Source: Epibacterium ulvae (GTDB lineage: Bacteria > Pseudomonadota > Alphaproteobacteria > Rhodobacterales > Rhodobacteraceae). From it: a stretch of DNA of 64,000 nt. The DNA lies in the NCBI RefSeq assembly GCF_018678075.1, contig NZ_JAHHIR010000035.1, positions 124,001 through 188,000 of the forward strand. The letters are read 5' to 3'. The notes beneath the pieces are model-generated. The model did no database searches and was not told the DNA's origin. It saw only the letters and a list, made by a program, of their open reading frames with translations. This document shows, piece after piece, positions 10,650 to 63,231 of this stretch; position 1 is the first letter of the stretch, and the number at the start of each line of letters is the position of its first letter. A program made the translations under genes and the position numbers.

Positions 10650-12466
10650 GTTTCCATGGCTTCCAATTCGTCGATCATGTCAGAGATCATTGACAGGCCC
10701 TTGTCCCAGAATTTGGGGTCCGAGGCATCAAGGCCGAAGGGGGCCAGCAGTTCCGTGTGGTGTTTGGAGCCACCGGCTTTGAGCATGTCGAAATACTTCT
10801 CTTCAAAGCCTTCGTCGCCTTCGGCGTAGACCGAATAAAGCGCATTCACCAGACCATCGCCAAAGGCATAGGCGTAGACATAGAAGGGTGAATGCACGAA
10901 ATGCGGGATATAGGCCCAGAAAGTCTCGTAGCCTTCGACAAAATCAAACGCTTCGCCCAAGGATTCGGCCTGAACAGACATCCACAGAATGTTGATGTCA
11001 TCAGGTGTCAGCTCACCCTCGGCGCGGGCGGCGTGCAGTTTGCATTCAAAGTCATAAAACGCGATCTGACGCACAACCGTGTTGATCATATCCTCGACCT
11101 TGCCGGCCAGCAGGATCTTGCGCTGTTCTTGCGTTTCGGCGGCGTCGAGCATTTTGCGGAAGGTGAGCATTTCACCAAAGACAGACGCGGTTTCGGCCAA
11201 GGTCAGGGGCGTCGACGACAGCATCTCTCCCTGTTCGGCGGCGAGCACCTGGTGGACGCCGTGGCCGAGTTCATGGGCGAGCGTCATCACATCGCGCGGT
11301 TTGCCCAGATAGTTCAGCATCACATAAGGGTGCACATCGGTGACGGTCGGATGGGCAAAGGCGCCGGGGGCCTTGCCGGGTTTTACGCCCGCGTCGATCC
11401 AGCCCTTGGTAAAGAACGGTTCCGCAATGTCACCCATGCGGGGATCAAAGGCGCTGTAGGCGTCCATCACGGTTTTTTCCGCGTCTTCCCAAGCCACGGT
11501 GCGGGTGTCTTCCATTGGCAGCGGCGCGTTGCGGTCCCAGACCTGCATGCGGTCCAGACCCAGCCATTTGCGTTTCAGCTCGTAATAGCGGTGGCTGAGC
11601 TTGGGGTAGGCGGCAACCACGGCTTTGCGCAGGGCCTCGACCACCTCGGGCTCGACATGGTTGGACAGGTGACGCCCGGTCTGCGGCGTTGGCATGCCGC
11701 GCCAGCGATCAACAATCTCTTTTTCTTTGGCTTGCGTATTGTGGACGCGGGCAAAGATTTTGATGTTGTCGTTAAACACACGGGAGAGTTCACGCGTGGC
11801 GGCCTCACGTTTGCTGCGGTCCTGTTCGGTCAGCAGGTTCAACGTGCCTTCGATGTTCAGCTCTTCGCCGTCGACGGTAAAAGTCAGACCCGCGATGGTT
11901 TCGTCAAACAGACGTTCCCAGGCATCGCCCACCACACCGAGGTCATGCAGGAATTTTTCCAGCTCATCCGACAGTTGGTAGGGTTTCATCGCGCGGATGC
12001 GGCCGAACACCGGCTTGTAGCGCGCAAGATCGGTATTGGCGGCGAAATGGCCGTCCAGCACGTCGTCTTCGATCCGGTTCAGTTCCAGCGTGAAGAACAC
12101 CAGCGGCGTGGTGATCACGGTGATCTGTTCCTGCATGTCGGACATGAATTTGGCCCGGCCCGCATCGGTGGTCAGCTGGTAATAGCGCAGACCCGCATAG
12201 GACATGATGCGGCCGGCGATCTGGTTGATCTTCTCATTGCGCAGCACGCAGGTCAGCAGCCCGTCGGCGTCCAGCTCGGCCAGCTTGCCTTCGTAGTCAG
12301 TGGCAAAGGCGGCGCATTCTCCCTGGAGCCAGTCGAGATCGCGGGTAAGCTCTGGCGCGTCTTCGCCGGTGTAGAGATCGCTTAGATCCCATTCGGGCAG
12401 CGCGCCGAGGTTGTCGGACCCGGCCGAAGCGTTGACGTCAAAAACAGGGAAGGGAAGCTGGAACAT
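10646..12466 (-). CDS. pepF: M3-family oligoendopeptidase F
   Basis: A 606-residue cytosolic zinc metallopeptidase of family M3 that cleaves short peptides internally. The zinc motif HELGH is at residues 398-402 (within MTLAHELGHGVHQVLAAEQ), and the third zinc ligand is the glutamate in TLAETASVFGEML about 27 residues later. The rest is helical as expected. The start at 12466 has AGGAG six bases upstream; an in-frame ATG at 12502 would add twelve unlikely residues. The length matches PepF. It ends in a four-base overlap with the GNAT gene. Confidence 0.93.
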   Translation of the reverse strand: MFQLPFPVFDVNASAGSDNLGALPEWDLSDLYTGEDAPELTRDLDWLQGECAAFATDYEGKLAELDADGLLTCVLRNEKINQIAGRIMSYAGLRYYQLTTDAGRAKFMSDMQEQITVITTPLVFFTLELNRIEDDVLDGHFAANTDLARYKPVFGRIRAMKPYQLSDELEKFLHDLGVVGDAWERLFDETIAGLTFTVDGEELNIEGTLNLLTEQDRSKREAATRELSRVFNDNIKIFARVHNTQAKEKEIVDRWRGMPTPQTGRHLSNHVEPEVVEALRKAVVAAYPKLSHRYYELKRKWLGLDRMQVWDRNAPLPMEDTRTVAWEDAEKTVMDAYSAFDPRMGDIAEPFFTKGWIDAGVKPGKAPGAFAHPTVTDVHPYVMLNYLGKPRDVMTLAHELGHGVHQVLAAEQGEMLSSTPLTLAETASVFGEMLTFRKMLDAAETQEQRKILLAGKVEDMINTVVRQIAFYDFECKLHAARAEGELTPDDINILWMSVQAESLGEAFDFVEGYETFWAYIPHFVHSPFYVYAYAFGDGLVNALYSVYAEGDEGFEEKYFDMLKAGGSKHHTELLAPFGLDASDPKFWDKGLSMISDMIDELEAMET

Positions 12467-12543
12467 GGGGGCTCCTGAGTGTGAAAATTTCTGCATCAAC
12501 ATCTATGGTGCGGGAAGGGCAAGCACAAGCGATGGGGAGAGTG

Positions 12544-13512
12544 TCAGCTGTTTTGGGCGAAGAATTCAACCATGTCCTGCAAGATACCATGCCGGGTGTC
12601 TGGATCTTCCATCAAGACCTCGTGACGGCCGTGATCAACGATACGCAGTTCTCCGCTGGGCCAAGCGTCCATACGCGTGCGGACGGCATCGGGGCTGACG
12701 ATCTGTTCATTGCTGCCAAGGAAACACAGCGTTGGGATATCCGGGGCAGTTTGACCAGTGAGATAGGTGCATTCGCGCATCCCCTCATAGACCCAATTGG
12801 TAGTGGGTCCGGCAATTGCCAAACCCGGGACCGCTTTGATCTGGTCGCGCAGCATGCTGTACATATCCGCATCATTGGTCAGCAGATTGCCCATAAAGGC
12901 ATGCGCCTGGACATAGGGAACGCGGCTGGTTGACGGGGCAAGGTGATTGCTGAAACAGAACGTGCGGGAAAATACCCCAAAGATATAGGCCAAGGGGCGC
13001 AGCGGGCCGGGCAGTTTGATGTCCCACATCGGCGCGGAAAAGGCCGCGGCTTGTACCGGCAGACCTTCGATTAGGGCGCGCAGACCAATGGCGCCGCCCA
13101 TGGAATGGCCCAGCAAAAACCAAGGCTTAGGCATGTCGAGCGTGGTTGCCAGTTCGACCATGGCGGCCACATCGGCCTGATAATTGGTGAATTCGTCAAT
13201 GTGACCCATCACCGGGTCATTCAGCAGGCGATCAGCCAGACCCTGTCCGCGCCAATCGATGACCAATGTTGCCAGCCCGTTTTTGCCAAAGACGCCGGCG
13301 GCATCGCCGTATTTTTCGATGTATTCAGTGCGCCCCGGAAACAGCAAAACGCTGCCTTTGGCGGGGCCGTGTTCGGTCTGTGCCGGCCAGTGACCGGCGC
13401 GCAGGCGCAGCCCGTCGCTGCTGTGGATCCAATGGGCCGTGCCGCCGCCCGGTCCACGGGCGATCTCTTCGTGCAAAGGGGCGTCGGTGCGGCGCAAGGA
13501 TCCACCATCCAT
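12544..13512 (-). CDS. alpha/beta hydrolase, lysophospholipase type
   Basis: A 322-residue alpha/beta hydrolase close to the PldB/monoglyceride lipase group. The nucleophile elbow is LLGHSMGGAIG with Ser137, the oxyanion region is near VLLFPGRTEYIEKYGD, and the triad is completed by the aspartate in NEQIVSPDAVRTR and the histidine in DHGRHEVLME. No signal peptide is present, so it is cytosolic. The start ATG shares one base with the stop of the SCP2 gene, so the two are co-translated. A role in lipid or ester turnover fits both partners, but the substrate is inferred. Confidence 0.9.
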   Translation of the reverse strand: MDGGSLRRTDAPLHEEIARGPGGGTAHWIHSSDGLRLRAGHWPAQTEHGPAKGSVLLFPGRTEYIEKYGDAAGVFGKNGLATLVIDWRGQGLADRLLNDPVMGHIDEFTNYQADVAAMVELATTLDMPKPWFLLGHSMGGAIGLRALIEGLPVQAAAFSAPMWDIKLPGPLRPLAYIFGVFSRTFCFSNHLAPSTSRVPYVQAHAFMGNLLTNDADMYSMLRDQIKAVPGLAIAGPTTNWVYEGMRECTYLTGQTAPDIPTLCFLGSNEQIVSPDAVRTRMDAWPSGELRIVDHGRHEVLMEDPDTRHGILQDMVEFFAQNS

Positions 13513-13802
13513 CAAGCGAGCACCGAAGCCAGTTGCATCGCGGTGCCCATGTCGCCGTCAATCGACAGGCGGCCCGACATAAAGGCGCTGGTGGGGTTCA
13601 ATTCGCCGGTGATCATGTCCTGAAACACCTCGGCATCAGCGGAGAGGGTCACGTCAGCCTCATCATTGCTGATGCGGGCACCGTCTGAGTCGAGCACAAT
13701 GGCACCCAGGCCTTCGATTTCAAATTTGGCAGATGCAGGAAATTCCGCGCCATCCAGTTTTTCGTTCAGTACTTCTACGGCTTTCGCCAAAATATCGCTC
13801 AT
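13512..13802 (-). CDS. SCP2 sterol-binding-fold protein
   Basis: A 96-residue protein made of one SCP2 domain. FEIEGLGAIVLDSDGARISN, then EADVTLSADAEVFQDMITGE and SAFMSGRLSIDGDMGTAMQL match this fold, in which the last helix closes a hydrophobic pocket. The start at 13802 has AAGGA 12 bases upstream; the open frame extends 27 codons further without family-like sequence. SCP2-like bacterial proteins bind lipids or acyl-CoA. Its stop overlaps the start of the lysophospholipase-like gene, which supports a lipid-related role. Confidence 0.88.
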   Translation of the reverse strand: MSDILAKAVEVLNEKLDGAEFPASAKFEIEGLGAIVLDSDGARISNDEADVTLSADAEVFQDMITGELNPTSAFMSGRLSIDGDMGTAMQLASVLA

Positions 13803-13903
13803 GATTGCGCTTCCTTCATTGCCTGCGCCCCAGAAGTGCACATCTTTGTGACGAGTGAAAGACTCATACTGGAAATATGCCACGGCGCAGATAGACTGGA
13901 GCC

Positions 13904-57984: not shown

Positions 57985-58870
57985 TCAAGCCGGCTCTGCG
58001 GCGCTGTTGCTAACGCAGAAGTCGATGCCATCGATCCACATGCAGTGGAGAATGACGGCAATACGGCTGGCGAGTGCCAACGTTGCGCGTCACACCCCGC
58101 GCCGCTGTGCAACCCGCATCGCCCAGGTCTTAAACAAAGACCATTTCTTGGAATGGGTGAGCGTCGATTGGGCCGCGTCATAGAGCATGGAGCGCAGCAG
58201 GGCATCACCGCATTTGGAGATACCGCCGTCATACTCGATCTCGCTGGCCTGGTACCGCTTGGGCCTCAGACCGGCATGTGCACCAACATCTCGCGAATGA
58301 ACAAAGCGGTGCGGTTGGTCGACCGATGCGCGGTGAGTGAGCGCGACGACCGGGCCAACTCCGGGCATTGTCATGAACCGTCTGCAGACCGGATCATCAC
58401 GCACCACATAGAGCAACACTTTGTGGAGCGCATCCAGTTGCTGACGCATCACCGCCCGGTCTGTCAGTAACGGCTCGACAATCACCGCAAATCTGGCAAA
58501 ATCCTCAACCAAATTCGCGGATCGGCGCTTCGTAGATCCGCGCGCTCACAACACCGACCTTCAGGCCGAAGGTGCGCAGTGTGCCACGCATGCCGCTCTC
58601 GATGTCGAGCACTTTGCGCTGGAGCAGCTTGCGGCTGGTCAGCAGCATGCGTTGTTCCTGAGCCATCAGCGTCTTGACATGCACCGTTTTGAACAAGCCC
58701 GCACGCATCATCTGGGCGATCCCGCGGGCGTCATTGCGATCGCTATTGTTGATCCGCTACGCCTTAAGCAGGGCCTTCATGTACCGAGTCTCGACGCATA
58801 TCACAGGCAGGTCCGTCTCGGTCAGCCCGTCACCAGCCATTGCGACAATGGCCCCGTCGCGATACACCGT
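57985..58870 (-). pseudogene. broken IS110-family transposase
   Basis: Fragments of one transposase in two frames. The N-terminal part reads DGAIVAMAGDG and LPVICVETRYMKALLKA before an in-frame TAG (58757-58759), then RINNSDRNDARGIAQMMR and FGLKVGVVSARIYEAPIREF. A frameshift near 58505-58512 leads to the second part: DPVCRRFMTMPGVGPVVALT, DVGAHAGLRPKRYQASEIEY and GGISKCGDALLRSMLYDAAQ. Another stop (58090-58092) interrupts it before LALASRIAVILHCMWIDGI and the final stop at 57985-57987. These are the DEDD and Serine-box regions of IS110-type transposases. The element is inactive. Confidence 0.85.
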
Positions 58871-58879
58871 CTTTCAGGC

Positions 58880-59345
58880 CACGATCTGGTCCAATGAATT
58901 TGCAGCCCCGCGCGCCGCTGTGGAACTGCGCTTTGGCTCGCACAACCAAGTGGGGGCCGGGGCGGAGATGCTGGCGATGGATCTGTTGCCCGTAAAGTCC
59001 GCTGCGCTGACAGCCCCGTTAGAGGACCTGCCCTTGGTCGAAACCATCGGCACCTCAGTAGGGTGGAAGGACAGGCAGGCGCAGACAGGTCGTTCCCTCA
59101 AGGCACCCAGCGTCATGGTGGATTCCTACGGCTCGGCGCTGAAACTGGCGATGAGCGGACGCGGCATGGCGCTGGTGAACCAAAACATCGCCCGCGACGC
59201 CTTGGCCAGGCACAAGATCATCTCTGCCGCGCCCCAGATGATCATCGGGCAGGAGGGGTATTTCCTGCTGCACCGAAGCGAAACCGCACTGGCGGGGGCC
59301 TTTGTTGCCTGGCTGCGGAGCTTGGTGGGCGCGGGCGTGACGTAA
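58880..59345 (+). pseudogene. C-terminal remnant of a LysR-family regulator
   Basis: The frame gives AAVELRFGSHNQVGAGAEML, then PLEDLPLVETIGTSVGWKD, SVMVDSYGSALKLAMSGRGM and ALVNQNIARDALARHKI, ending at the TAA at 59343-59345. This is the second half of a LysR effector-binding domain. The helix-turn-helix and the first part are missing, cut at the IS end. The upstream part of the open frame is only the IS sequence read in another frame. Confidence 0.8.
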
Positions 59346-59837: not shown

Positions 59838-60740
59838 ATGCGCACGTATACTGCAGTCTTCGCAGCCGCATGTTTTGCCCTCGCGGGAGGTCTTCACGCC
59901 CAAGAAGCCACGCCCAGTCACGTCTTTCAGGTCACCGAACATATTGTTCAGGAGTTAAAAGCGCTCAATGCGGAAAACTTCTCCACCGCGCGAACGATCA
60001 CCGCTCCGGAGGACCCAACCAAACCGCGCCATGTTCTGTTTCTGGTGCGCGACCAATGGCGCAAAGTACAGTTGCTGCGGTTTATCAACGGTCTGAAAAG
60101 CCACAGCCTGCCACCAGAAAATATCCACGCGATCACCCCTGCCGAAGTGAAGGCCCAGGTAGAAAAACTGTTGGTGGAGGTTCAAGAACTGCGCTCGGCC
60201 TATGGTCTGGGCGCGAGTGAGATCACCGCAGAATTGCCCAGCGGCAAAACACCGACCGATGTCTATGGAAACTTGCTGCAAATCTCGGCTGAGCTGGACG
60301 CGCTTGGGGTGCCGTCGACGGTGCCCAATGACGTGTACCGGCTCGCCGCATCGGTCGTTGAAAACCTCGAAGGTCTGGCGCAACGCGAAAACATTGCACT
60401 GACCCGCGCGGAATTGCCCAAATCCAAGGGCCGCACGCCGACGGATGCCTATGCCGCGGCGCTAGATCTGATCGCCGCCATTCAAAACCTCGCATCGACC
60501 AAGGAAGCCTTTGCGATCCAAGGTGGCATCACAGTGCCCACCGCAGCGGCGGGGTCGAAATCCCCATCGGATGTGATCGTGGTTTTGTCGCGCGCGCAGG
60601 CCGATGTCATGGCGCTGTTGAACGCTGCCAAATCGCAAGGCCAATTGACAACCGCAGAATATGAGGGCGGAAAAACGCCGTCAGATGTCTATGACGCCGT
60701 GATGTACGCGCGTCTTCTTGTCGAAGCCCTGACGTCTTAA
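59838..60740 (+). CDS. periplasmic protein with eight proline-DVY repeats
   Basis: A 300-residue protein of no family I recognise. A signal peptide (YTAVFAAACFALAGGLHA) points to the periplasm. The mature part is a tandem array: the motif x-P-[ST]-[DE]-V-Y appears at prolines 26, 63, 101, 139, 163, 201, 243 and 281, for example TPTDVYGNLLQISAELDAL and TPSDVYDAVMYARLLVEAL. Spacings are 37, 38, 38, 24, 38, 42 and 38. Each motif is followed by an amphipathic helix, so a helical repeat rod or sheet is likely. ATG at 59838 is preceded by GGAG; a GTG at 59832 is too close to it. The chemoreceptor gene follows after 35 bases. A ligand-binding or scaffold role for that receptor is inference. Confidence 0.85.
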   Translation: MRTYTAVFAAACFALAGGLHAQEATPSHVFQVTEHIVQELKALNAENFSTARTITAPEDPTKPRHVLFLVRDQWRKVQLLRFINGLKSHSLPPENIHAITPAEVKAQVEKLLVEVQELRSAYGLGASEITAELPSGKTPTDVYGNLLQISAELDALGVPSTVPNDVYRLAASVVENLEGLAQRENIALTRAELPKSKGRTPTDAYAAALDLIAAIQNLASTKEAFAIQGGITVPTAAAGSKSPSDVIVVLSRAQADVMALLNAAKSQGQLTTAEYEGGKTPSDVYDAVMYARLLVEALTS

Positions 60741-60775
60741 CCCCCTTGAGCCACGCAGAAAAAGGAGAGGGTCCA

Positions 60776-62692
60776 ATGGCCAATCCAGCCACCCGCCCGC
60801 CGCGCAAATGGTACCAGCTTCGTCTGGCCGGTCGTATCCTGATCTGGGTGATCGGGCCGATGGTATTGTTGATTGGGATCAACCTGTTTTTTGTTCAACA
60901 GGCTGGGGAACAGTCCCGTGACCTTATGGGTCATCAACAGTCTATCGTGGCTTCGGACCAGCGCTTGATGCGTGCTGTTGGCTCGATGACGACCTCGCTG
61001 TTGGACGTCAACCGGGCGCTGCGCCAAATGGAGAATGCCCGCCGTGAGGGGCTGGCGGCGCAAAACATGGACACCAAGGGAGAGATCGCGCGCCGGACAG
61101 GCTTTCAAAATGCCGCGCGGCGCTATTTGAAATCCATCCTGGGCTTTTCTACCGTGCTCGAACTCACCGATCTGCCCCAAGCGGAATATGCGCAATATGT
61201 AACGTATCTGACCCGCGCTGCCGGGCAGATCGACCGGATGGTATCGATGCAGACAGTGGCCAACAGCCGCACATTGCGATTGGCCCAAGCCGGTGAAATT
61301 GAGGAAGCGCGCAACAATTTCCAATTCGAAGAACGGATGCGCAGCAAGGCGATCCAGCAGACTTTGGATGAGGTCAGCGTCAAATTTACCGAGCTGCTGT
61401 ACTTGATCAGTATCCTGCAGGTGGATGCCAATGAAGTTCGGATGGCCGAGGAAAGTGACACGCAAGCGCGCATTCAGCAGATCTCGTACATGGTGCTCAG
61501 CGCGATTGCCGCCGTTGGCATGCTGGCGGCGTTGTTGTCAGTCAGTCGCACGATCATTCGTCCGATCCGCCGCATTCCGCAAATCATTCTGAACGCAGGG
61601 AAAAACAGTGCGGACAGTGCAAACACCACCGATGCAGCCCGCCATGACGAGATCGGCGATATCTTGGGCGCTGTGCAAAGTTTCGGCCAGGAGATCAAAA
61701 CCGCACAGGAGGCACAGCAGCGCGAAACAGAGGAGCAGCTGGCCAAACAATCCCGTGCGGTTGATGCGATCAGTGACGGGTTGAACCGACTGGCCAATGG
61801 CGATTTGACCGCGCGGATCCATCAGGACCTGCCCGAGGGCTACACCGAGCTGCGCACAAATTTCAACCGAACCCTGGAAACCCTCAGCGAAACCATCGCG
61901 CATATCTCAACCACCTCCCTGTCAATCAAGGGCAGCGCGGGAGAGATCAGTCAGGGCTCGCAGGATCTGTCGGAACGCACCGAAAGCCAGGCGGCCACCT
62001 TGGAAGAAACCGCAGCCGCGTTGGACCAAATGACCTCCAGCGTGCGACTGGCCGCCGACAATGCCCGCAGTGTTGAGGCCACGATGAACGAGGCCCGCAG
62101 CGCCGCAGAGACCAATCGCGCAGTGGTCGACGATGCCGTGGCTGCGATGACCGAGATCAAGAAAAGCTCCTCGCATATCTCACAAATCATCACCGTGATT
62201 GACGATATTTCCTTCCAGACAAATCTCTTGGCGCTTAATGCGGGTGTCGAGGCGGCGAGGGCCGGTGAAGCAGGACGTGGCTTTGCGGTCGTGGCCTCGG
62301 AAGTGCGGGCCTTGGCGCAACGTTCCTCGGATGCGGCGATGGAGATCAAAACGCTGATCTCCAACAGCGGCCAACAGGTGGAAAATGGCGTGCAACTGGT
62401 TGATCAGGCGGGCGAAGCTTTGCAAAGCATCGTTGCCCAGGTCACCGATGTCTCTCGTCTGGTCAGTGGCATCGCCGAAGGCGCGGCAGAGCAATCGATT
62501 GGCCTGAACGAGATCAACACCGGCATGACCCAGATCGACCAGGTCACCCAGCAAAACGCCACTTTGGTCGAGGAAACAACCACCACCAGCCAAACATTGA
62601 ACGCGGACGCCATGCAATTGGCAGAGCTTGTGGCCCATTTCCAAGTCGATGCCGAGAGCCCGTCAGCGCGTCCATCCTTTGCGGCGCGTTGA
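60776..62692 (+). CDS. methyl-accepting chemotaxis receptor
   Basis: A 638-residue chemoreceptor. Membrane helix 1 is near residues 18-40 (ILIWVIGPMVLLIGINLFFV), the periplasmic helical sensor runs from about 40 to 235, and helix 2 is near 240-262 (ISYMVLSAIAAVGMLAALLS). HAMP-like segments lie at about 262-385 (including LNRLANGDLTARIHQDLPEG). The signalling hairpin contains VIDDISFQTNLLALNAGVEA and GEAGRGFAVVASEVRALAQR. Start ATG after AAGGAGAGGG. No che genes are near. Its sensor may act with the upstream repeat protein, since the two genes are 35 bases apart. Confidence 0.93.
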   Translation: MANPATRPPRKWYQLRLAGRILIWVIGPMVLLIGINLFFVQQAGEQSRDLMGHQQSIVASDQRLMRAVGSMTTSLLDVNRALRQMENARREGLAAQNMDTKGEIARRTGFQNAARRYLKSILGFSTVLELTDLPQAEYAQYVTYLTRAAGQIDRMVSMQTVANSRTLRLAQAGEIEEARNNFQFEERMRSKAIQQTLDEVSVKFTELLYLISILQVDANEVRMAEESDTQARIQQISYMVLSAIAAVGMLAALLSVSRTIIRPIRRIPQIILNAGKNSADSANTTDAARHDEIGDILGAVQSFGQEIKTAQEAQQRETEEQLAKQSRAVDAISDGLNRLANGDLTARIHQDLPEGYTELRTNFNRTLETLSETIAHISTTSLSIKGSAGEISQGSQDLSERTESQAATLEETAAALDQMTSSVRLAADNARSVEATMNEARSAAETNRAVVDDAVAAMTEIKKSSSHISQIITVIDDISFQTNLLALNAGVEAARAGEAGRGFAVVASEVRALAQRSSDAAMEIKTLISNSGQQVENGVQLVDQAGEALQSIVAQVTDVSRLVSGIAEGAAEQSIGLNEINTGMTQIDQVTQQNATLVEETTTTSQTLNADAMQLAELVAHFQVDAESPSARPSFAAR

Positions 62693-62728: not shown

Positions 62729-62759
62729 AAAGAACCGGTGTCTTTGCACCCGGTTCTTT
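62729..62759 (+). terminator. terminator after the chemoreceptor gene
   Basis: AAAGAACCGGTG pairs with CACCCGGTTCTTT with one bulge around a short TCTTTG loop, followed by TTTC. It lies 36 bases after the receptor stop. Confidence 0.8.
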
Positions 62760-62880: not shown

Positions 62881-63231
62881 ATGAAACGTCTTCGCAACCC
62901 ACGCACTGGCATTGATACCGGTGACGCGCAGATCTTTTCAGAGTTTGAAAGCGGCGGCACCATGTGGACCGGCAAGGGCGACCGGGAGCGGCGCAAGGCG
63001 GTCACGTTTGCCGAACCCTATGCGCGCCCGCCTGCGGTTCAGGTCTCTGTCGCGCTGTGGGATATGGACACCGCAGCTGCAATCCGGGCCGAAATCCGCG
63101 CCGAAAACATCACCGAGACCGGATTTGACATCGTCTTTCGTACCTGGTCCGACAGCCGCATCGCCCGGCTGCGCGCCAATTGGATGGCCATCGGGGATCT
63201 GCCGTTCGATGATGACTGGGATGTGGATTAA
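62881..63231 (+). CDS. H-type lectin domain protein
   Basis: A 116-residue protein with the H-type lectin fold. TGDAQIFSEFESGGTMWTGKG and RERRKAVTFAEPYARPPAVQ, then IVFRTWSDSRIARLRANWMA match the domain first described in Dictyostelium discoidin and snail agglutinin, which binds N-acetylgalactosamine. No signal peptide is visible. GAGGCGACA precedes the ATG. The role in bacteria is largely unknown. Confidence 0.8.
   Translation: MKRLRNPRTGIDTGDAQIFSEFESGGTMWTGKGDRERRKAVTFAEPYARPPAVQVSVALWDMDTAAAIRAEIRAENITETGFDIVFRTWSDSRIARLRANWMAIGDLPFDDDWDVD

Follow-up and report, generated by a model that had tools for sequence, protein, structure and literature searches.

A predicted periplasmic helical-repeat protein encoded beside a chemoreceptor in Epibacterium ulvae is a candidate co-sensor

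A repeat-protein gene lies directly ahead of a chemoreceptor gene

Near the end of the window, the 64,000-nucleotide stretch of Epibacterium ulvae DNA that we analyzed, two adjacent genes are accompanied by two short sequence elements:

59838 to 60740, plus strand: predicted secreted eight-helix repeat protein (RP) of 300 residues; open reading frame (ORF) with an ATG start, stop codon included
60762 to 60767, plus strand: Shine-Dalgarno-like AAGGAG ahead of the ATG of the next gene, read directly from the sequence
60776 to 62692, plus strand: methyl-accepting chemotaxis protein (MCP) of 638 residues, stop codon included, with a predicted first transmembrane segment (TM1), a predicted periplasmic four-helix sensor of ~200 residues, a predicted TM2, HAMP (weak) and MCPsignal
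62729 to 62759, plus strand: terminator-like perfect inverted repeat with 10-nt arms (62729-62738 and 62750-62759) and 11 nt between them

A first-pass annotation of this DNA had placed a chemoreceptor gene with a ribosome binding site of its own 35 bases after the repeat-protein gene, and we find both as described. It also had a terminator close the pair. The perfect inverted repeat does lie behind the MCP gene, and a scan for consensus terminators lists a shorter version of it, but the region shows no clear excess of such elements over shuffled sequence (7 versus a mean of 4.9, SD 2.2).

The MCP matches the Pfam signaling domain MCPsignal strongly (PF00015, E = 2.3e-49, 168 bits against a cut-off of 34.6) and HAMP weakly (0.016, 15.9 bits, below the cut-off of 25); the HAMP domain of the receptor at a related locus, L038, passes the Pfam cut-off. 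Hydropathy places the TM segments near residues 21-28 and 236-246 in four near relatives of the window MCP. Residues 1-324 were modeled as all-helical, with a pLDDT of ~80-91 over residues 61-220 and the sensor forming a four-helix bundle, although the protein has no match at E ≤ 1 to the four-helix-bundle family 4HB_MCP_1 (PF12729). The modeled bundle is what it has in common with the MCPs at loci L054, L066 and L068, which match this family.

Beside the pair, two further stretches look, by eye from their translations, like a transposase fragment (58090-58512, minus strand) and the C-terminal portion of a regulator of the LysR type (58674-59345, plus strand), and may be remnants.

RP carries a loose proline-headed repeat and matches no recognized family

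Residues ~1-22 of RP form a signal-like N terminus by hydropathy. In 41 of 42 RP relatives, the most hydrophobic 11-residue segment falls within the first 60 residues, a proxy for export to which L039 is the sole exception. The signal-like N terminus, judged by this proxy, suggests that RP is exported to the periplasm.

The first-pass annotation had described a secreted protein with one motif repeated at prolines 26, 63, 101, 139, 163, 201, 243 and 281, five of the seven spacings being 37 or 38 residues. All eight prolines are where it put them, and the spacings measure 37, 38, 38, 24, 38, 42 and 38. The description as one motif in eight copies is looser than claimed because the first two copies (PSHV and PRHV) deviate from it. 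The motif is in excess over shuffled sequence: P-x-[DE]-[VA] is present in six copies, where shuffling gives 0.42 on average (six or more in 0 of 20,000 shuffles), and P-[ST]-[DE]-V-[YIF] three times (as many in 0 of 20,000), while the ten copies of the loose form P-x-x-[VA] were reached in 11 of 20,000.

No family had been recognized from the sequence, and our searches of Pfam, NCBIfam, PHROGs and PDB sequences likewise gave only weak or isolated matches. The best for RP were DUF1707 in Pfam (E = 0.068), a phasin in NCBIfam (0.12), phrog_26679, of unknown function, over 32 residues in PHROGs (0.0033), and a value of 0.092 among PDB sequences. Profile searches of the PDB gave 0.4 and 0.24. When 31 RP members were searched, the sole Pfam match at E ≤ 0.01 was that of one member to PexRD54_WY (0.00028), and in NCBIfam one member matched an ATP phosphoribosyltransferase regulatory model (0.00061); both models are unrelated. 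Neither the window protein nor the 31 members matched the Pfam profiles of solute-binding proteins (SBPs), TPR/Sel1-type or other repeats, or known wall-binding domains. A clear match to a family of another function, which the first-pass annotation had named as grounds for refutation, did not appear in these searches, and we found no description of the family in the literature searched, the scope of which excludes most subscription journals.

RP is modeled as a chain of helices with internal duplication

The AlphaFold model of RP, of modest confidence and built from a five-row alignment (mean pLDDT 70.8, pTM 0.59, the N-terminal third less certain), is all-helical, with eight helices spanning residues 26-48, 62-83, 101-121, 139-155, 163-183, 201-221, 243-263 and 281-299. 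Seven of these begin exactly at one of the eight prolines and one begins a residue earlier, so that each motif corresponds to a helix start.

Self-comparison of the 31-member family alignment (A2) indicates that the two halves of RP are duplicates, with 135 columns aligned between the N- and C-terminal halves at E = 9.8e-25. Self-matches also appear when the alignment is shifted by two repeats (186 columns, 3.6e-22) or by six (65 columns, 2.2e-7), and no odd-numbered offset was reported. We infer a unit of two helices, a hairpin of ~75 residues, present four times with internal duplication. Against a strict rule of odd and even repeats, most single repeats resemble one another at 84-98% probability irrespective of parity; repeat 2 is an outlier, at 17-95% versus the others. 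TPR, Sel1 and other α-hairpin solenoids also consist of repeated helical units, but their units measure roughly 34-44 residues.

Some family members are longer. ORFs of 574-638 residues with two RP matches are RP doubles, and double-length RPs of 615-632 residues occur at L041, L045, L047, L049 and L147. Among the loci read, no fusion of RP and receptor in a single chain was noticed.

RP is scattered across the phylum and tracks its MCP within the genus

Sequence searches within the phylum recovered RP relatives in four classes; apart from the window's own class and that of G340, we take these to be the Zeta- and Gammaproteobacteria. In the window's genus, RP is present in 4 of 18 genomes (G000-G017), and the same four (G000, G012, G013 and G017) carry a full-length match to the MCP N terminus (E < 1e-160). 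The other 14 have neither, so that one never occurs without the other. Thirteen of these 14 show partial matches to the MCP N terminus (best 1.4e-7), mostly at the HAMP end and a few over part of the sensor, and G006 has no such match at all. The window's own genome holds a single RP copy.

Beyond the genus, a four-row profile found one positive, the window's own genome, among 295 drawn from the family, and Shimia sp. R9_2 is a further RP member. A draw from the phylum gave 37 of 398 genomes at E ≤ 0.1, the window's own genome and weak matches included. The 31-row profile at E ≤ 0.001 detected RP in 22 of 48 genomes from the class of G340 and 4 of 78 from that of G343; draws from two further classes gave 16 of 229 for that of G646 and 2 of 385 for the window's own. 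The last draw omitted two known positives, G380 and G585, and such draws are therefore to be read as samples.

In a comparison of flanks (ORFs of at least 80 residues, E ≤ 1e-6), RP and MCP are the only genes common to the window and the Shimia or E. ulvae stretches compared. A lectin gene of the window has counterparts in T. litoralis and T. aquimaris, and in T. litoralis so do two more downstream ORFs. The lectin gene, which lies just after the MCP gene (62881-63231, plus strand), encodes an H-type lectin domain protein (PF09458, E = 6e-22); its relatives follow the pair in both T. species, with 73-81% identity among the three, and none turned up in the stretches from Shimia and E. ulvae. 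We rejected carriage of RP by phages or plasmids, since there were no relatives in IMG/VR (searched with the five-row alignment) or PLSDB (searched with three family members).

A two-TM receptor adjoins RP at most loci

RP loci were found by RP sequence alone, the surrounding regions were taken and ORFs were called mechanically. An RP ORF was counted at E ≤ 0.01 with the 31-row profile, which gave 57 loci with the window's own pair excluded, and a receptor was defined as a same-strand protein with two N-terminal TM segments by hydropathy, encoded directly beside RP at a distance of at most 60 bases or overlapping it. Such a receptor is present at 48 of the 57 loci: 33 of 36 in a first batch and 15 of 21 in a second (L113-115 and L140-157), collected after the pattern had been seen in the first. 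The RP gene usually comes first; the MCP gene precedes it at L054, L064, L065 and L066. Under a stricter label (an MCP or kinase HMM match and more than 500 residues), 46 of the 57 RPs have a receptor neighbor versus 6 of 242 control genes. The controls were non-RP genes of 200-400 residues at the same loci, which makes for a hard comparison because RP loci are rich in receptors.

Three of the 57 loci lie at contig ends (L042, L047 and L055) and two are doubtful: at L153 (7838-9696) the adjoining MCP seems broken into a 235-residue N-terminal part and a 316-residue HAMP-MCPsignal part, and at L154 an RP-like piece of 80 residues overlaps a GGDEF gene with several TM segments. Four RPs have no adjacent receptor. 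Their neighbors are genes for a DAHP synthase and a TPR protein (L141), a methyltransferase (L148), CheW, 100 bases upstream (L155), and a transglycosylase, also upstream (L156). The ORFs at L154, L155 and L156 are short, at 80, 193 and 218 residues. Outside the 57 stand the weak loci L070-L073, which the 31-row profile misses at E ≤ 0.01; matches in G688, G369, G393 and G434 and a 135-residue match at a contig start in G424, for which surroundings are absent; L116, with no RP ORF at threshold; and L005, L006 and L008, which are the same loci as L074-L076.

The first-pass annotation had called for a count of the two genes as neighbors in other genomes and had staked its reading on a conserved neighborhood with receptor genes. 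Our count extends that neighborhood far beyond the genus, and the contrary outcome, no conservation in related genomes, did not occur. The pairing proposed there, with a chemoreceptor, proved too narrow: MCPs are among the partners, but so are histidine kinases and one GGDEF-EAL receptor. Among 35 neighbor or partner proteins scanned, none belongs to an SBP or transporter-permease family, although transporters were not systematically sought.

Partner receptors differ in output and in sensor class

By HMM, 17 of the 48 adjacent receptors carry an MCP signaling domain and 29 a kinase core; the L151 receptor is a GGDEF-EAL protein, and that of L056 meets the contig end before any output domain. 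The four kinases scanned with Pfam (L043, L045, L142 and L149) are hybrid kinases. Clustering of the 48 periplasmic domains by sequence (phmmer, E < 1e-4) gave six groups, which we term classes A (28 members), B (8), C (4), D (4), E (3) and F (1). Class B, all from the window's class, is the sensor kind found in near relatives of the window. In class A, three scanned members (L043, L045 and L142) match HK_sensor_dom_bact, and two of class C (L054 and L066) match 4HB_MCP_1.

No relation between clusters was detected by hhalign, the best value being 5% for E versus F, and we rejected the idea that all partner sensors form one family, their sequence profiles being unrelated. Since L068, of class D, matches 4HB_MCP_1 as class C does, C and D may share a fold or be distant kin. 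The RP halves were also considered as kin of the sensor domains, and this was rejected as well, neither half reaching an hhalign probability of 1% with any of classes A-E.

Class D occurs with three outputs, each beside an RP: an MCP (L068), kinases (L149 and L150) and the GGDEF-EAL protein (L151). Sensor matches between receptors of different output range from 2.9e-14 to 5.1e-25. From these sequences, linkage to RP appears to follow the input side of the receptor; in class D, RP stays while the output differs.

RP lineages follow sensor classes

When the six class labels were placed on a tree of 42 RPs, from which six ORFs longer than 400 residues had been left out, five changes sufficed, which is the minimum; shuffled labels needed 18.8 on average, and none of 200 shuffles did as well. 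A fully supported branch (100) separates each of classes A, B and C from the rest, and D and E are not single RP clades, requiring two changes each. L115, L157 and L151 form long branches. Because RP clades partly follow taxonomy, class B coming entirely from the window's class, this result is inflated. In some genomes that encode two RPs, a separate receptor accompanies each; in both G340 and G348, for example, the partners are a class A kinase and a class C MCP. In mirror-tree comparisons, RP distances in class B follow the sensor beyond the output (partial r 0.86 versus 0.50, 8 rows), and in class A the sensor is not favored (0.38 versus 0.44 for the kinase core, 21 rows, with L056 left out).

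RP is a candidate co-sensor of the adjacent receptor

The position of the RP gene directly beside a receptor gene, at most of the loci examined and in four classes, makes RP probably a dedicated outside partner. On genomic evidence, we consider it likely that RP serves as a dedicated periplasmic co-sensor of the neighboring receptor, similar in action to an SBP. Besides the linkage itself, its specificity for sensor class and the joint presence or absence of RP and MCP in the genus favor this reading, as do the class B mirror-tree and the comparison of flanks with Shimia and E. ulvae. The gene pair would then form a two-part sensor. RP would be exported to the periplasm, fold as a chain of helical hairpins and, in a state that binding of a ligand or polymer most likely brings about, dock on the periplasmic domain of the receptor; the docked protein would alter signaling through TM2 and HAMP to the output, which would be the CheA pathway here and a kinase or c-di-GMP enzyme elsewhere. 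The docking, the ligand and the direction of the signal are parts of this scheme that we infer, and RP may present a ligand or structure to the receptor, as the first-pass annotation suggested. The four loci without an adjacent receptor and the class A mirror-tree count against a co-sensor. RP also pairs with several sensor classes unrelated by profile, so that one shared interface is not obvious.

The same genetics would result if RP were a negative regulator or stress monitor that holds the receptor off by default until a cue such as damage or redox removes it, with no small ligand presented. CpxP acts in this way, being bound by default and keeping its receptor off. A second precedent is HbpS-SenS, in which the unmodified secreted accessory protein inhibits its kinase (PMC4991794). 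In our judgment, an envelope-stress switch accords poorly with chemotaxis receptors. The proteins of the RP family have zero to four cysteines each and their alignment has no conserved cysteine column, which gives no sign of redox sensing, and we regard a negative regulator as unlikely.

The repeat architecture, together with the double-length RPs beside kinases (L041, L045, L049 and L147), would also suit a scaffold or tether that connects receptors with one another, with peptidoglycan or with the outer membrane and either orders arrays or senses envelope strain. This appears improbable given that RP has no known wall-binding domain and that kinases and GGDEF-EAL proteins form no chemoreceptor arrays. 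Still less probable is a role confined to chaperoning or assembling the sensor domain in the periplasm, without any part in sensing; it would likewise yield tight one-to-one linkage, but many 4HB or dCache receptors are known without such a partner, and the partners of RP belong to several sensor classes. Least credible is cotranscription without functional contact, for example of a binding protein or enzyme riding with signaling genes, which would accommodate the four RPs without an adjacent receptor but is at odds with linkage to three output types, with the tracking of sensor class and with the joint presence or absence of RP and MCP in the genus.

Comparison with known accessory proteins

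The main known examples of separate secreted proteins that mediate indirect sensing are SBPs, many of which are shared with transporters. SBPs have a two-lobed α/β fold, in contrast to the all-helical repeat modeled for RP, and RP further differs from them in that its gene lies directly with that of the receptor and in having no Pfam match above chance. As RP lacks the sequence and fold marks of SBPs that we looked for, a co-sensor of this kind is better called a functional analogue. SBPs are secreted and act with two-TM receptors, as we propose for RP. They activate the same types of output as the RP partners have, namely chemoreceptors, sensor kinases and c-di-GMP enzymes (PMC9602780); in Pseudomonas aeruginosa, for example, PstS stimulates the receptor CtpL (PMC4926252). 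HbpS of streptomycetes offers a second parallel, as a secreted accessory protein encoded next to a sensor kinase, the activity of which it changes, in a cluster with senS-senR in actinobacteria. By its description there, HbpS is octameric, GAF-like and heme- and iron-binding (PMC4991794), whereas RP is modeled as all-helical.

More broadly, we lean toward the view that RP belongs to a previously undescribed family of secreted helical-repeat proteins that spans the phylum and would serve as a general co-sensor module, each member being dedicated to the adjacent receptor and retained alongside the input domain across different outputs. The module would have been recruited by several sensor classes of at least two folds (Cache-like and four-helix) and would feed chemotaxis, kinase and c-di-GMP signaling. 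If so, it would provide a route of indirect sensing without SBPs, and a receptor-dedicated helical-repeat family serving three outputs would be a second widespread kind of co-sensor. Such a family could account for receptors whose sensor domains have no known ligand, and the rule for finding the partner would be simple: look one gene away.

Additional components at RP loci

At L043, a CheB-CheR fusion (12160-13839) comes after the genes for RP and the hybrid kinase, a hint of a kinase pathway linked to methylation. Genes of ~560-580 residues stand at a like place in several class A loci, that of L043 being the one scanned. Short two-TM proteins are encoded directly upstream of RP at L043 (6108-7154), L046 (8156-9202), L113 (7825-8871) and L140 (7800-8768 and 8746-9906). 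The one at L043 consists of CHASE3 alone (E = 8.4e-55), and the 322-residue protein at L140 has no Pfam match; these proteins may contribute a third component to the sensor. The RP-linked MCP of L068 (3992-6973, minus strand) ends in a C-terminal hemerythrin domain (PF01814, E = 6.2e-9), so that a single receptor may combine an external partner and a domain for oxygen binding.
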